Source: Methylosinus trichosporium OB3b
GTDB taxonomy: Bacteria; Pseudomonadota; Alphaproteobacteria; Rhizobiales; Beijerinckiaceae
Length of the DNA stretch: 64,000 nucleotides
Direction of reading: 5' to 3'
Assembly (NCBI RefSeq): GCF_002752655.1
Contig: NZ_CP023737.1
Span: 310,001-374,000 of the forward strand
Shown here: positions 540 through 14,666 of the stretch, in pieces
Numbering within the stretch: position 1 is the stretch's first letter
Layout: each line of letters opens with the position of its first letter
Notes under the pieces: generated by a model
Seen by the model: only the letters and a program-made list of their open reading frames with translations
Database searches by the model: none
What the model was told of the DNA's origin: nothing
Made by a program: the position numbers and the translations under genes

Positions 540-1250
540 TCAGCTCTCGCGCCGCAGCGTCGCGGATGTCTGGCCGAACAGGATTTTGCGCTCCGCCTCG
601 GTGAAGCCCGAGGCGGAGGGCCGTCGGAGCTCCTCCGCTCTCGCATAGGCGCGAATAACCGCCGGCCGCGCGCCTATGGCCTCGAACCAGCGCTTCAAAT
701 GCGGAAACTCGTCGAGATTTTGGCCCTGCGCCGCATAGGGGACGATCCAGGGATAGGCGGCCATGTCGGCGATCGAATAGTCTCCGGCGAGGAAATCACG
801 GCCGTCGAGCCGCCGGTCCAGCACGCCGTAGAGCCGGTTCGTTTCATTCACATAGCGGTCGATCGCATAAGGGATTTTCTCGGGCGCGTAATTGCGGAAA
901 TGATGATTCTGCCCCGCCATCGGCCCGAGGCCGCCGATCTGCCAGAACAGCCATTCGAGCACGGCGACCCGGCCGCGTGTCTCCTGCGGCAGGAAGCGGC
1001 CCACCTTCTCGGCGAGATAGAGGAGAATCGCGCCGGATTCGAACACGGGCAGGGGAGCGCCGCCGTCGGCCGGCGCATCGTCGACGATCGCCGGCATGCG
1101 GTTGTTGGGAGAGATGGCGAGAAACTCGGGCCGGAACTGCTCGCCCTTGCCGATGTCGACGGGAACGATGCGATAAACGAGCCCCGCCTCCTCGAGGAAG
1201 ATCGTGATCTTGTGGCCATTCGGGGTGGGCCAGTAATGGAGGTCGATCAT
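540..1250 (-). CDS. Glutathione S-transferase, nu-class (YghU/YfcG-like)
   Basis: A 236-residue cytosolic thioltransferase-fold protein. The N-terminal thioredoxin-like domain opens MIDLHYWPTPNGHK, with the Thr-Pro-Asn segment that in YfcG/YghU-type enzymes contacts glutathione. It continues with the cis-proline segment NNRMPAIVD near residue 50 and ESGAILLYL near 71. The helical C-terminal domain has WLFWQIGGLGPMAGQ near residue 100, the clearest nu-class signature. Such enzymes act as disulfide-bond reductases using two glutathione molecules. The ATG at 1250 is preferred over the upstream in-frame start at 1331 because AGAGGG lies a few bases before it and family homology begins there. The gene is convergent with the small protein at 390 and divergent from the glycosylation genes. 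Confidence 0.88.
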   Translation of the reverse strand: MIDLHYWPTPNGHKITIFLEEAGLVYRIVPVDIGKGEQFRPEFLAISPNNRMPAIVDDAPADGGAPLPVFESGAILLYLAEKVGRFLPQETRGRVAVLEWLFWQIGGLGPMAGQNHHFRNYAPEKIPYAIDRYVNETNRLYGVLDRRLDGRDFLAGDYSIADMAAYPWIVPYAAQGQNLDEFPHLKRWFEAIGARPAVIRAYARAEELRRPSASGFTEAERKILFGQTSATLRRES

Positions 1251-7686: not shown

Positions 7687-10600
7687 ATGAGAAATAAGAG
7701 GTTTCTCGTCGCCACAATCGTCGGTCTGATCCTTTCGGGGTGGAATTTCACAATCCCAACGCGAGGCTCTGGGCATGAGTGGTTCGCAATGTCGATGGCT
7801 TTCGGTCAGGCATGCGTCCCGCCCGTTTGGGAGCCCGATTGTCTTCCGATGATCGACGTAGGCGGGGCACAGGTCAACGTCGGAGAGAACTCAGGAAATC
7901 CGAGCGATTTGTTCGCTTGGTGGTGGGGGGGGCTTCGGCAACGGGATCGGCGGCGGCGGATTCGGAGCGACGGGTGGCGACGTAGCGGGCGCCGGGAGTC
8001 GAAATAATTTCGATCGTTCCCAGAACCAAGGCGACCGCGCCGATATTTGTGTCGGTGATCCGATCAATTTTGCCACCGGTAGCCAATTTGAAAAGGAGAC
8101 GGATTATTCGGCGGCCGGACGTCTACCTCTCACGTTGATTCGTTACTACAACAGCATGGACCCGAGTGGACTGCATGAGCTGGGGAGAAATTGGCACCTA
8201 TCCTATAGCCGCTCTATCGCTGTCAATGGGGCCACTGCCGCGATAACGCGCGATGATGGTCGAGTGCTCACTTTTACTTCATCGAACGGTACATGGACGC
8301 CCCCGCTCTACGCAAGCTACAGCCTGTCGTCGACGTCATCCGGCTACACGTTGATAACCGATCTGGACGAAACGGAAACATACAACAGCGCTGGAAAGCT
8401 GCTCTCCTATTCAGATCGCGGGGGGCTTAAGATTACCCTTGTTTACGACGGTCAGGGGCGCGTCTCCACCATTAAAGACCTCTTCGGCCGCACGATGACA
8501 TTCTCCTATAATTCGGGTTCTTTGATTTCCCGCGTGCAAACGCCCGACGGGAATCGCTACGATTACGGCTATAACGCCGACCAGCGGCTCACTTCGGTGA
8601 CGTTTCCTGACGGGTCAGTCCGACGATATCTTTATGAACGCAGTGGCCAACCCAACTCATTGACCGGCGTCGTCGACGAGAACAACATACGCTATACTAC
8701 AACTGAGTATGATGATTCTGGGCGCGCTGTTTCCTCTCAACACGCTGGCGGAGCGGATCGCTATTCGGTTTCCTACGACAATTTGAGTTCGACCGGCGTC
8801 GTCGATGTCAAGATGCCGCTCGGTGGCTCGCAGAAATATACACTCAAATCCGTCAACGGGCTCGCCAAGCAGATCGAGCAGTGGCGTGGCTGCGCGGAAT
8901 GCTCTCCTAATGGCTCCAGCGGGCAAAGCAATGCCAATGTCTACGACAGCAACGGAAATGTGAAGAGCTATACAGACTTTAATGGTAACAAAACGACTGC
9001 AATCTACGACCAGTCGCGCAACCTGCCGACGTCGGAGACACTGGCTGCCGGAACGCCGGTTGCTCGCAGCATCACGACCACTTGGCACTCGAAATTCCGC
9101 CTGCCGACGAAGATCGTCGATGGCGCGCGCACCTTTACCTATTCGTACGATGCGGCCAAGGGCGTTCTGCTGACAGCGGCAGTTGCAACATCGACCTCTT
9201 CGAGCACGCGCACCTACGCCTATAACAACGTCGGCCAAGTGACATCCGCAACGGACCCGAGAGGTCGTGTGACGGGCTACGCGTATGACGCCATGGGCAA
9301 TCTCAGCAGCGTGACCAATGCGCGCGGTCACACCACGGCTTTCACGAGCTACGACGCCAACGGCCGGCCGCTGACAATCCAAGACCCCAACGGCGTCGTC
9401 ACAACGTTGACCTACAATTTCCGTGGGCAAATCACCTCGAGCATCAAACTCGGGCAGTCGACGACCTACACCTATGACGCGACCGGCCAGTTGACCAAGC
9501 GTCGAGAGCCGACTGGCGCTACGCTTTATTTTGGTTATGACGCAGCACACCGGCTCACAAGCGTTCGCGACGGCGCCGGCAACAAGATTGTCTACACGCT
9601 CGATGCTGCAGGAAATCGGATCGGTGAAGAGGCTTTCGATCCAAGCGGCGTGCGGGTCCGCAAGCATAATCGCGGCTATGATGGTCTCGAACGCCTTTCA
9701 CAGGACGTCGGCGCCTATGAACAGACATCGATGTACGATTATGATTCCAACGATAATACTGTTGGCATACAAAATCCGAACGGTAATGTGACGGCTTTCA
9801 CTTATGATGCGCTCGACCGACTTTCGAAGAAAACATATCCGCTGAACGACGTCTTCAGCGGAGGCGCCGGCACAATCGTCTTTGCGGACATTCTGTATGC
9901 CTATGACGCCAACGGTCGCCTCGCCAGCGTGACCGACCCTCGCGGGCTGACCACGCGCTACACGAACAATTTGCTCGATCTGCCGGACGCGATCGCCAGC
10001 CCCGACACGCGACTGACCTCCAAAACCTATGACGCCGCCGGCAATGTGCTGACCTCGACCGACGCCCTCAGCCAGACGACGACCTATCTCTACGATCAGT
10101 TGAGCCGACTGGTGAAGACGACTTATGCAGACGGTTCCATAGCGACCTACGTCTATGATCAAGGCGACTATGGGATCGGTCGTCTCACCTCTGTAACAGA
10201 TTCCACTGGAACAACCAGCTTCGCCTATGACGCCTTCGGCCATGTCGTGCAGAAGACGCAGACCATTGGCGCCGTCACGCTCACGTCGAAATGGTTTTAT
10301 CACGCGACCAACGGACGCCTCATCGGCCACACCTATCCGTCGGGCTTCAAGCTCCTCTATTCCTATGACAGCGCCGGACGCGTCAGCGCAATTACCCTCC
10401 AGCGGCCGGATGGAACACAGTCGACACTGATCGGCGCGATCTCCTATGGCCCGTTCGAGACCATCACATCCTGGAATCCGAATGTTTCAGGCGGCGGCTC
10501 CTATATTCGCAGCTTCAATGCTGACGGCCGCATCACGAACATCACCTCCTCGACCGGCAACAAGCTGACCTATACCTATGACGCAGGCGGACGGATCAAG

Positions 10601-11857
10601 TCGATCTCGGAGAGCAATCTCGCAGTCAAGAGCTTCTACTATGACCGCAATGACCGCCTGATACGCTATGCCCGCGCCTCCAACTCTATCCTGTATGACT
10701 ATGACAATGCCGACAATCGCACCTCGGCTGGCGGCTCTGTCTATACGATCTCGACGACGGGCAATCGCATCGCCAGCATTGTTGCCGCCGGCTCGAGCAC
10801 GATACAATCCTTTAGTTGGGATGCCGCCGGCGGACTGAGGACCCACGCCAGCGATTTCACCTTGGGCTATGACAAGCGCAATCGGCTGGTGCAGGCCAAG
10901 GTCGGCGCGCTGACCACGAAATATGGCGTCAACGACCTCGGCCAGCGCGTGACGAAGAGTGGGGCGAGCGGACAGGTCGAATATTTCTACGACCTATCGA
11001 GCCATGTCATCGGGACCTATGACCAGAGCGGCGCGGCGAAGGAGGAGATCGTCTGGCTCGGCGATCTGCCGGTGGCGACGCTGCAGAGCGGCGCGGCCTA
11101 TTTCATCATGCCGGATCAGCTCGGCGCGCCGCATGAGATCGTCAATGCGGCAAACGCCCGAGTGTGGTTCTGGGACCATGACCCGTTCGGCAATGGAGCG
11201 CCGACGGCGACCGCGGGCTTTTCGCATGATTTGCGCTTCCCGGGCCAGATCTACGACGCTGAGACGCGCCTGCACTACAATGGATTTCGCGATTATTCGC
11301 CGACGCTCGGCCGATATGTTCAGAGCGATCCCATCGGGCTGGCTGGAGGAATCAATACATATAATTATGTAAACAGCAATCCGCTTTCAAATATTGACTC
11401 GTCTGGATTAGAGACTCTTGTGATAACGAGTGGAGGAATTTCCTCAAACCCATTTGGGCACTCCGCACTTGCATTTACTGGACAAGGTGTTTACAGTTAC
11501 GGCACTGCTGATCTTTATGGCTCTAGTACTACAGCTTATATTCAGGGGCAGTTGGTTAGCCGTAGCGTTACCATTACCACGCTCAAAACGACATCCGAGC
11601 AGGAGGAGAGCATGGCAAACTATTACAAGCAAAACTACGGGCGTGGTACAAAATACTCGGTGATATCAAATAACTGTGCAAATGCAGCCGCAGGTGCATT
11701 AAGCGGCGCTGGCGTAATAGGTCCCCTTTTTAGTACTGCGCTAATGCTTCCTTACGACCCTCAGCATTGGGCTTCGCAACAATTAGGCTCCGTTACACAA
11801 ACACTGGCGCAAGGCAGCGCGCTCCCATCTGGATTTGATGCATTTAACCCTCGATAG
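7687..11857 (+). CDS. RHS/YD-repeat polymorphic toxin (reading frame broken at an 8-G run)
   Basis: GGAGG precedes the ATG. The first segment (MRNKRFLVATIVGLILSG) is a signal peptide or membrane anchor. At 7925-7932 a run of eight G shifts the frame: with seven G the frame continues as WWWGGFGNGIGGGGF and on through GDPINFATGSQFEKETDY, the usual N-terminal RHS entry motif, into the open frame that ends at 11857. About 1,390 residues in total. From there some 20-25 YD repeats (forms of YDxxGR) build the shell, and the core-closing motif ends in RYVQSDPIGLAGG near 11310-11345. The last 148 residues are a variable tip. RHS proteins enclose a C-terminal toxin in a beta-cocoon and deliver it to competitors. 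The N-terminal signal suggests Sec export here, with no VgrG or PAAR nearby. Whether the frameshift is real, phase-variable or an error is open. Confidence 0.8.
11411..11854 (+). other. RHS variable toxin tip, putative papain/LRAT-like fold
   Basis: The 148-residue C-terminal tip after the RHS core. It carries NPFGHSALAF near its residue 14 and SNNCANAAAGAL near residue 87, a His-then-Cys order as in circularly permuted NlpC/P60 (LRAT-like) hydrolases. A YSYG segment lies between them, and KTTSEQEESMANYY precedes the Cys. Such folds cleave amide or ester bonds in peptidoglycan or lipids. The base composition changes here: the line 11401-11460 holds 27 G/C of 60, well below the genome background, as expected for a recombined tip. 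The fold is inferred from motif order only, and the substrate is unknown. Confidence 0.5.
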
Positions 11858-11868
11858 GAGCGTATCTA

Positions 11869-12276
11869 ATGAGTCTTTTTTTTAAACTCGGCATGCTTGG
11901 TTTGCTTTTATCTGGAGCTATGTACTATTGTTGGAAGTTGTTCGGGGTTGATGGCGTAACCGATCAAAAAGCCACATATGCGGCAATGCAGGGAGTCGAG
12001 CTTTTTTACCGAGACAAAGTTATCGCGCCCCCCTTTCTCGTTGAACAAAACGGCCTACGCTTGCTCGCTATCCCTTCTGAGGACGAAAAATTCCCTTATA
12101 TTTGGATTGCCCTGAACCGTAAAAGCCCCACCGATCTAGACGGCGTATATAAAGTTGGCGCTGGTCGTCCAAAGAAAATAAGCTGTGCCAAGATCGCTAG
12201 CGTTTTCGATCAACCGGGCATATCGGAAAGCGCGAAAGCTTTCTTGCGGACCAACTGCTCCGAGAACGATTTCTGA
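11869..12276 (+). CDS. Candidate immunity protein for the RHS tip
   Basis: A 135-residue protein starting 11 bases after the RHS stop, with TAGGAGCG upstream of its ATG. An N-terminal hydrophobic segment (about residues 2-24, FFKLGMLGLLLSGAMYYCW) anchors it, and the remaining 110 residues (one Cys in ISCAKIAS, one in RTNCSEN) would lie in the periplasm. I recognise no named family. The position just after a polymorphic toxin tip, the small size and the low G/C content (23 of 60 in 11881-11940) are the usual marks of a cognate immunity gene. A membrane-anchored periplasmic location fits a toxin that acts in the periplasm. Function is inferred from context, not homology. Confidence 0.6.
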   Translation: MSLFFKLGMLGLLLSGAMYYCWKLFGVDGVTDQKATYAAMQGVELFYRDKVIAPPFLVEQNGLRLLAIPSEDEKFPYIWIALNRKSPTDLDGVYKVGAGRPKKISCAKIASVFDQPGISESAKAFLRTNCSENDF

Positions 12277-12487: not shown

Positions 12488-12916
12488 TCACTCGCCCTTG
12501 ATTTCGATCCCATTCTCCTCGCACCACTCCTTCAGCGCCTGTTCCTGCGCCTTCGCCTCGAACGCGTGCCAGTCCTCGAGCGCGCCTCTGCGCTCCAGCA
12601 GACCCTTGAAGCGCCCATAGGCGCCCTTGCGGCGGAAGATGTCGCGAATATCGTCGTAAAGGTCCGGCAGGCGTTCGCGCGCGAAATCGAGCACGAGCTG
12701 CTTGCCGAGATCGAGCTGCCGTTTGCCTGGAATCGCCAGATATTTTTCCTCGTCGTCGAGGTCGTCGGGCAGCTCCTCGAAATCCTCGATATCTATGGAG
12801 CGCCAGTAGATCATGCCCGACTCCCGGCGCAAGAACGCCTCTGCGTCGCCGCCGCCGTTGGTGCTGACGAATTCATGGGCGAGAGTGAGTTCGTTCCAGT
12901 CGACGATGATAGGCAT
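12488..12916 (-). CDS. UPF0158 family protein
   Basis: A 142-residue soluble acidic protein: [29 protein letters not shown], an acidic stretch ([19 protein letters not shown]), then [20 protein letters not shown] and [20 protein letters not shown]. The order of a residue pattern with a Tyr/Trp strand, acidic patch and helical FAR / GRFK segments matches UPF0158, a family with no firmly assigned biochemical role. The ATG at 12916 is where homology begins; the longer frame to 13114 runs through a low-complexity region. It is divergent from metG, with 179 bases between the starts. Confidence 0.72.
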
Positions 12917-12994
12917 GGCGGGCGTTCCGAAGCTTCGGGGAGGGCGAAAGCTTCGCACGAGAGGGCAATCTGGTCGAGACGGCGGCGCTGCGAA

Positions 12995-13020
12995 GATGCG
13001 AGCCGGAGGCGCGCGGTCCG
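12995..13020. repeat. Degenerate single arm of palindrome family A
   Basis: GATGCGAGCCGGAGGCGCGC then GGTCCG resembles the family-A arm (GATGCGAGCCTGAAG...GCGGTCC) with several substitutions. It lies between UPF0158 and metG. Confidence 0.4.
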
Positions 13021-13095
13021 GGGCGGGGGCGCGATCTTCGCGTTCCGCCGTTCTCCGCGCTTTCGCGGCGCGGCAAAGCGCGCTAGACCAGCGGC

Positions 13096-14666
13096 ATGGC
13101 CGAACGTCCGACATACATGATCTCCACCGCCATTCCCTATGCGAATGGCGCCCCCATATCGGTCACGCCTATGAGCGGATCGCCACCGACGCCTTCGCCC
13201 GCTTCAAGCGGCTCGACGGCTATGACGTGCTGTTCGTCACCGGCATGGACGAGCACGGCCAGAAGATGCAGCGCACCGCCGAGCGCGAGGGGCTGACGCC
13301 CCAGCAGCTCGCCGACCGCACCGCCGCGCAGTTCCAGACCATGGGCGAGACGCTGAACGCGCTCGCCGACGACGTCGTGCGCACCACCCAGCCGCGCCAT
13401 GCCGCGACCGTGCTGGAAATCTGGCGGCGCATGGAGGCGGCGGGCGACATCTATCTCGCCAAATATTGCGGCTGGTACTCCGTCCGCGACGAGGCCTATT
13501 ACGACGAGAGCGAGATCTCGGAGGTCGAGGGCAAGAAGCTCGCGCCGACCGGAACGCCGGTCGAATGGGTGGAGGAGGAGAGCTGGTTCTTCAAGCTCTC
13601 CGCTTATGCGGATCGGCTGCTCGCCCATTACGAGGCGCATCCCGATTTCATCACGCCGGACAAATATAAAAACGAGATCGTCGCCTTCGTGAAGCGCGGC
13701 CTCTCCGATCTCTCGATCAGCCGCACCACTTTCGACTGGGGCATTCCGGTTCCGGAGAAGCCGGAGACGAACGCCAAGCATGTGATGTATGTGTGGGTCG
13801 ACGCGCTCACCAATTACATCACCGCGACCGGCTTTCTGACCGGGGAGGGGGATCGGACCCGCTTCTGGCCGGCGAACGCCCATGTGATCGGCAAGGACAT
13901 CACCCGTTTCCACGCCATCTATTGGCCGGCCTTTCTGATGTCGGCCGGCGCGCCGCTCCCGAAGCAGATCGTCGTGCACGGCTTTTTGTTCAGCCGCGGC
14001 GAGAAGATGTCGAAATCGCTCGGCAATGTCGTCGATCCGATCGATCTTGCGACGCGCTATGGCGTCGACCAGCTGCGCTATTTCTTCCTGCGCGAGATTC
14101 CTTTCGGCCAGGACGGCAATTATTCGCACGAGGCGATCGTCAACCGCATCAACGCCGATCTCGCCAACGACCTCGGCAATCTGGCGCAGCGCTCGCTGTC
14201 GATGATCGCCAAGAATTGCGGCGGCAAGGTTCCGAGCCCGGGCGAATTGACCGAGGCCGACCGGGCGCTGCTGGCAGAGGCCGCGGCGGCGCTGGAGAAG
14301 GCGAGAGCGGCGATCGACGCCTATGCGCCGCATCTGGCGCTCGCCGAGATCTTCGGCGTTGTCGGCGACGCCAACCGCTATTTCGCCGGCGAGGAGCCCT
14401 GGACGAAGAAAAAGACCGATCCGAAGCGCATGGAGACCATCCTCTATGTGACGGCGGAGGCGCTGCGGCGGCTGGCGATTCCGCTGCAGCCGTTCATTCC
14501 GAGCGCGGCTGCGAGCCTTCTGAACCTGCTCGGCGTCGCCGAGTCGGCGCGCGGCTTCGCGTCGGCCGGCGAGACGCATGCGCTCGTCTCCGGCGCGCCG
14601 CTGCCGGCGCCGGCGCCCGTGTTTCCGCGTTATGTGGAGGAGGCCGAGGCGGGAGACAAAGGCTGA
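13096..14666 (+). CDS. metG: Methionyl-tRNA synthetase, with a one-base deletion at the HIGH motif
   Basis: Charges tRNA-Met in the cytoplasm. The true start is ATG 13096 ([20 protein letters not shown]). At the C run 13151-13155 the frame is lost: one more C would give [17 protein letters not shown] and join the downstream frame that stays open to 14666. Restored, the protein has 523 residues, the usual length for the short alphaproteobacterial form without the C-terminal dimerisation domain. KMSKSLGN (in [14 protein letters not shown]) and the anticodon-binding helical domain are intact. The zinc knuckle is of the short type. metG is followed by a secreted-protein gene, tatD and an MBL gene, the common alphaproteobacterial order. 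Because metG is essential, a sequencing or assembly error is the likeliest cause. Confidence 0.88.

Follow-up and report, generated by a model that had tools for sequence, protein, structure and literature searches.

A candidate permuted papain-like toxin tip on an RHS protein and its putative membrane-anchored immunity protein in Methylosinus trichosporium OB3b

RESULTS

An RHS tip and the small gene behind it form a GC-poor pair

The 64,000-nucleotide stretch of the Methylosinus trichosporium OB3b genome analyzed here (NZ_CP023737.1, positions 310,001 to 374,000; hereafter the window) carries an RHS gene that ends in a 148-residue tip and is followed by a small gene of 135 codons, which we interpret as a probable toxin and immunity pair (Table 1). 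An earlier note on this DNA had described the core motif DPIGLAGG, a tip with FGHSALAF and then NNCANAAAGAL, and a gene beginning 11 bases after the tip, and each of these was recovered. Its statement that the pair is poorer in guanine plus cytosine (GC) than its surroundings also held, as the GC content over 11411-12276 was 0.479, compared with 0.662 for the whole window, and of the 866-base stretches that the window contains, 0.4% had a GC content as low as this. By part, the RHS portion (7907-11398) had a GC content of 0.571, the tip (11399-11857) one of 0.484, and the small gene one of 0.473. When the pair was compared with locus L009, the nearest relative with available DNA, the differences at the first, second, and third codon positions were 24/23/71 for the tip (113 codons) and 60/50/84 for the small gene (134 codons), giving an excess at the third position in both.

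Table 1. Features of the RHS locus in the window. Residue numbers of the tip are those of the modeled tip, counted from 11399.
Feature	Coordinates	Strand	Evidence
RHS frame as given in the protein database (P0001)	7907..11857	+	RHS_repeat PF05593, 310.1 bits; Rhs_assc_core TIGR03696, 83.4 bits
Open reading frame (ORF) with signal-peptide-like start, overlapping the RHS frame out of frame	7687..8007	+	ORF list; Kyte-Doolittle
DPIGLAGG, end motif of the RHS core	11327..11350	+	sequence
Candidate toxin tip, 148 residues, predicted permuted papain-like enzyme	11411..11854, stop to 11857	+	relatives, alignment, model
Predicted catalytic His21 (FGHSALAF)	11459..11461	+	invariant in 13/13; among the first residues of model strand 21-26
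Predicted catalytic Cys93 (NNCANAAAGAL)	11675..11677	+	invariant in 13/13; first residue of model helix 93-103
Candidate immunity protein, 135 residues	11869..12276	+	same gene family behind the tip in 7/7 loci; 35 relatives including the window's own
N-terminal helix (residues 3-25) of the immunity protein, candidate membrane anchor	11875..11943	+	AlphaFold2 model; hydrophobicity moderate

The tip belongs to a small family with an invariant His and Cys

A protein search with the tip region returned nine proteins, the window's own included, and a single peptide pattern run against the GTDB species genomes gave seven loci. In the genome samples, where up to nine candidates were scored per genome and the counts are lower bounds, the tip was present in at least 3 of 397 genomes of the order, one of them (G087) with a partial match only, and in at least 3 of 398 genomes of the phylum, the window's genome being counted each time; judging from contig position, G617 of the phylum sample is probably the same genome as that of L012. 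Both His21 and Cys93 were invariant in the 13 aligned tips, each of which has a single Cys. N17, G20, and most of the stretch around FTGQGVYSY were invariant too, as were Y32, Y47, and some polar residues, which are candidates for the active-site Tyr and the third polar residue of permuted enzymes. A more distant tip, that of L017 in genome G309, keeps FGH and NNC. The His...Cys order taken alone would mean little; the pattern stands above chance because the two residues are invariant in all 13 tips, all seven loci have a member of the same small-gene family behind the tip, and substitutions relative to L009 concentrate at third codon positions.

The earlier note had named a structure prediction without a papain-like fold as a refutation of its proposal. 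The model of the tip has a permuted papain-like fold, with the predicted catalytic residues each opening a secondary-structure element, and the top five entries of the fold comparison agree; the list also includes PPPDE/deSUMOylase. At the sequence level, the most frequent Pfam match of the tips was Lnb_N (DUF4105, PF13387; curated cut-off 22.2 bits), found in seven of 13 at E ≤ 1. Scanned alone, four tips passed the cut-off (P0002, 27.4 bits; P0003, 27.2; L009, 25.7; L010, 23.2), and P0004 (21.8) and P0007 (10.8) scored below it. Scores were lower when whole RHS proteins were scanned (14.7 bits for the window's protein). In the match of the window tip, the part of the profile covered was about positions 95-166 of 175, on the Cys side and without the His. 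Profiles of the YiiX, PPPDE, and LRAT-like enzymes remained far below their cut-offs (PF05903, 16.3 of 29.2 bits; PF04970, 12.9 of 24.3), and in hhalign the tip reached 2.0% against PF05708 members. The earlier note had recognized no name for the tip or the small protein, and this holds for Pfam, NCBIfam, PADLOC, and PHROGs, except that some tip relatives score above the Lnb_N cut-off. The literature searched, which excludes preprints and most subscription journals, yielded no title or abstract that names either of them.

The partner gene recurs behind the tip and has two predicted kinds of membrane anchor

In all seven loci, an ORF of 125-145 codons belonging to one family lay behind the tip on the same strand. 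In L010, L011, L013, L014, and L015 its first base fell between -3 and +6 from the last base of the tip stop, and in L009 and L012 the tip frame was interrupted while the partner gene was still open. A profile search with the partner family returned 35 proteins, including the window's own and P0011. The family has two branches, one with an N-terminal helix (window, P0011, L009, and L010) and one with a lipobox (L011 to L015), which were joined by hhalign at 96.7% (E 4.7e-10, 95 columns) from shallow alignments.

Of the 34 second-branch proteins aligned, 33 had the lipobox Cys and one had Arg in its place; Gly precedes the Cys in 32 of the 33 and Asp follows it in 25. Asp after the lipobox Cys is a mark of lipoproteins retained in the inner membrane of enterobacteria. 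As a lipobox implies export, the domain shared by both branches is very likely periplasmic, and the periplasmic location that the earlier note had predicted is thus supported by the lipobox of the sister branch. The N-terminal membrane helix proposed for the window's own protein fared less evenly: AlphaFold2 predicts one helix there, and its hydrophobicity is the lowest of its close branch, with 1.86, 2.39, and 2.52 in three relatives. The helix of L010 holds VAAC, readable as a lipobox. Two C-terminal Cys (106 and 130 in the window) were kept in all four members of the window's branch and would fit a disulfide. The model of the small protein had a predicted local distance difference test score of 81.7 and a predicted template modeling score of 0.62, and the fold comparison gave no convincing likeness to solved folds.

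Related RHS cores carry different tips

The RHS paralogue in the same genome, 82% identical to the window over the 200 core residues compared, and four cores of G405 (74-79% identical) have visibly different tips and different downstream ORFs; that of the paralogue encodes 235 residues and, by eye, lacks an N-terminal hydrophobic stretch. The locus shows the traits of RHS polymorphic toxins, namely RHS repeats and a core before the tip, tips that vary on related cores, and a candidate immunity gene directly behind. In L014, from a Desulfocapsa metagenome-assembled genome, the pair is followed by a second short RHS ORF (917-1768) with a TseH-like tip (PF25218, 75.3 bits), so that two different permuted tips lie side by side; behind it, at 1765-2091, is another small ORF, which begins with a hydrophobic segment. 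In L017, where the tip lies in 1038-2939, the gene behind (604-1041, minus strand) encodes an ankyrin-repeat protein (PF12796, 44.5 bits) with, by eye, a lipoprotein-like start, and therefore tips of the wider family can pair with another immunity family.

As to export, the core of the paralogue shares its reading frame with a signal-peptide-like start, and Sec export is therefore the likely design. The sheath protein TssB/VipA (PF05591) of the type VI secretion system (T6SS) gave no match in the M. trichosporium genome, with all four candidates scored and the control positive in one of 14 genomes.

Some further RHS loci and neighboring genes were observed. A 180 kb contig of the same genome (G000:C4) holds five RHS core matches at 89259-94802 and 134143-136255, three of them within 6 kb. 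In the same genus, contig G405:C132 (L046, L055, and L058) has several RHS cores in a row with different tips over about 4 kb, an array-like arrangement of displaced tips. The two-partner secretion domain PF05860 matched at seven places in the M. trichosporium genome (for example, G000:C1:2896558-2897277), and other large exported proteins of the two-partner type are therefore present. The next gene downstream in the window (12488-13114, minus strand) matches UPF0158 (28.0 bits; cut-off 21.1), and no link to the pair was seen.

DISCUSSION

We consider it probable that the RHS protein is a polymorphic toxin with the tip as its toxin domain, that the gene behind encodes the matching immunity protein, and that both act on the periplasmic side of the inner membrane. 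The tip would be a permuted papain-like thiol enzyme of the NlpC/P60 superfamily in which His21 activates Cys93, and Cys93 would attack the acyl bonds of lipids on that side of the membrane in a rival cell. The immunity protein, fixed to the same membrane face through a single helix in the window and through a lipid in the sister branch, would protect the producing cell and its kin by blocking the tip, presumably through binding. Delivery through a Sec-dependent route is suggested by the start of the paralogue together with the lack of a match to the sheath gene.

Several observations weigh against this interpretation. Residues 83-87 of the tip model, just before the Cys, are unreliable, and Foldseek by itself gave no hit at E ≤ 0.001, with TseH appearing at E 0.013. 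The window tip itself scored 20.3 bits against Lnb_N, below the cut-off, six of the 13 tips (L011, L013, L014, L015, P0006, and P0008) had no Lnb_N match, and hhalign of the tip against seven Lnb_N sequences gave a weak 10.2%. The Kyte-Doolittle hydrophobicity of the helix in the window's immunity protein is no more than moderate, at 1.47 over 19 residues.

The earlier note had left the target as peptidoglycan or lipid, and kinship favors lipid. That the tip of the same pair cuts peptidoglycan, as a periplasmic amidase or endopeptidase, seems unlikely to us. The superfamily has its classical cell-wall enzymes in the NlpC/P60 peptidases, an immunity protein in the periplasm would suit this target just as well, and TseH was first proposed as an endopeptidase, according to excerpts of PMC12994826; against this, His before Cys marks the permuted group, to which a hydrophobic, lipid-suited pocket is ascribed in parts of PMC3142127 and PMC12994826, and hhalign against nine canonical NlpC_P60 domains gave 4.3%, compared with the 10.2% for Lnb_N, both being weak. 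Fold and kinship thus make a lipid target the likelier one. Among lipid targets, lipoproteins, from which the tip might remove or transfer acyl chains as Lnb does rather than attacking bulk phospholipid, appear quite improbable. Lnb_N is the nearest profile, the lipobox branch of immunity proteins looks like lipoproteins, and lipoproteins were raised as possible Tox-Act1 targets (PMC12994826, in part), whereas kinship to Lnb is distant and phospholipase activity is described for Tox-Act1 and TseH in the same excerpts. A further variant, to which we give very little credence, is that the tip is a hostile Lnb-like enzyme stripping or transferring these acyl chains and that immunity in the lipoprotein branch is partly a lipidated decoy whose anchored N-terminus is presented to the active site; the helix branch of the window would then have lost the decoy and kept the blocking domain. 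A cytoplasmic target, whether a protein or something else, with an incidental partner helix, is the least probable of these alternatives: PPPDE/deSUMOylase enzymes of the permuted fold act on proteins, Rhs-fused effectors are usually cytoplasmic in action according to the excerpts of PMC12994826, and the window helix is not strongly hydrophobic, but the near-invariant lipobox Cys of the sister branch implies that the domain is exported.

A separate matter is whether the window copy still makes a whole toxin. The database protein P0001, which does not differ from the window's protein in the tip region that was searched, begins with an ATT codon at 7907, and the first ATG, GTG, or TTG of the RHS frame is TTG 8135. 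The upstream ORF has a signal-peptide-like start (Kyte-Doolittle 1.67 over 19 residues from residue 6), and its overlap with the RHS frame falls in a Gly-coding stretch where the two are in different frames, which also counts against our interpretation. This break, absent from the earlier note, makes production of the whole toxin doubtful, and the copy may be silent, whether permanently or reversibly, or its sequence may contain an error. That it is a relic, in which the immunity gene is kept and the toxin is no longer made whole, is a tentative possibility, in line with the interrupted tips and open partner genes of L009 and L012. Nevertheless, the 1240 codons that begin with TTG 8135 are open, as is the tip, the invariant residues of the tip are kept, and a reading error in the repetitive Gly-coding stretch or reversible switching would look alike; a relic here would have no bearing on the function of the family.

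The type of weapon is already known, and both families are nameless in the libraries searched. The pair, if read correctly, would extend the young group of permuted NlpC/P60 toxins that attack lipids by two unnamed families, one of toxins and one of immunity proteins. It would also place this fold on RHS proteins, here in a genome whose search gave no T6SS sheath gene and whose RHS paralogue has a Sec-type start, in contrast to the usual cytoplasmic action of Rhs-fused effectors (PMC12994826, in part). As one immunity domain occurs with two kinds of membrane anchor, the site of protection is directly testable.

Among known systems, the nearest Pfam profile is Lnb_N/DUF4105, that of a lipoprotein N-acyltransferase, whose cut-off four of the 13 tips pass and the window tip does not. 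Lnb is a housekeeping enzyme that is not known to come with an immunity gene. The YiiX, PPPDE, and LRAT-like permuted enzymes are more remote by profile, and papain-like toxins and folds are treated in PMC3482391 and PMC10318531, whereas PMC13377157 turned out to have no relation to the subject. TseH (PF25218; structure 6v98), for which phospholipase activity is reported in excerpts of PMC12994826, has a profile that did not match the window tip at E ≤ 10. The closest counterpart is Tox-Act1/Imm-Act1 (STox_15), to which the window pair is likened through the published description, as far as excerpted from PMC12994826. There, Tox-Act1 is a permuted NlpC/P60 toxin, sister to DUF4105, that harms cells when in the periplasm but not when in the cytoplasm, depends on its conserved His and Cys, and acts as a phospholipase on phosphatidylglycerol and phosphatidylethanolamine; Imm-Act1 is membrane-associated, as is predicted for the window partner, and is likewise encoded behind the toxin. 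The two systems differ in that Tox-Act1 is linked to the T6SS whereas the window tip sits on an RHS protein in a genome where TssB was not found, and in that the neutralizing Imm-Act1 has two membrane helices, compared with one N-terminal helix in the window partner. Our best reading is that the window pair would work like this phospholipase toxin and its immunity protein.
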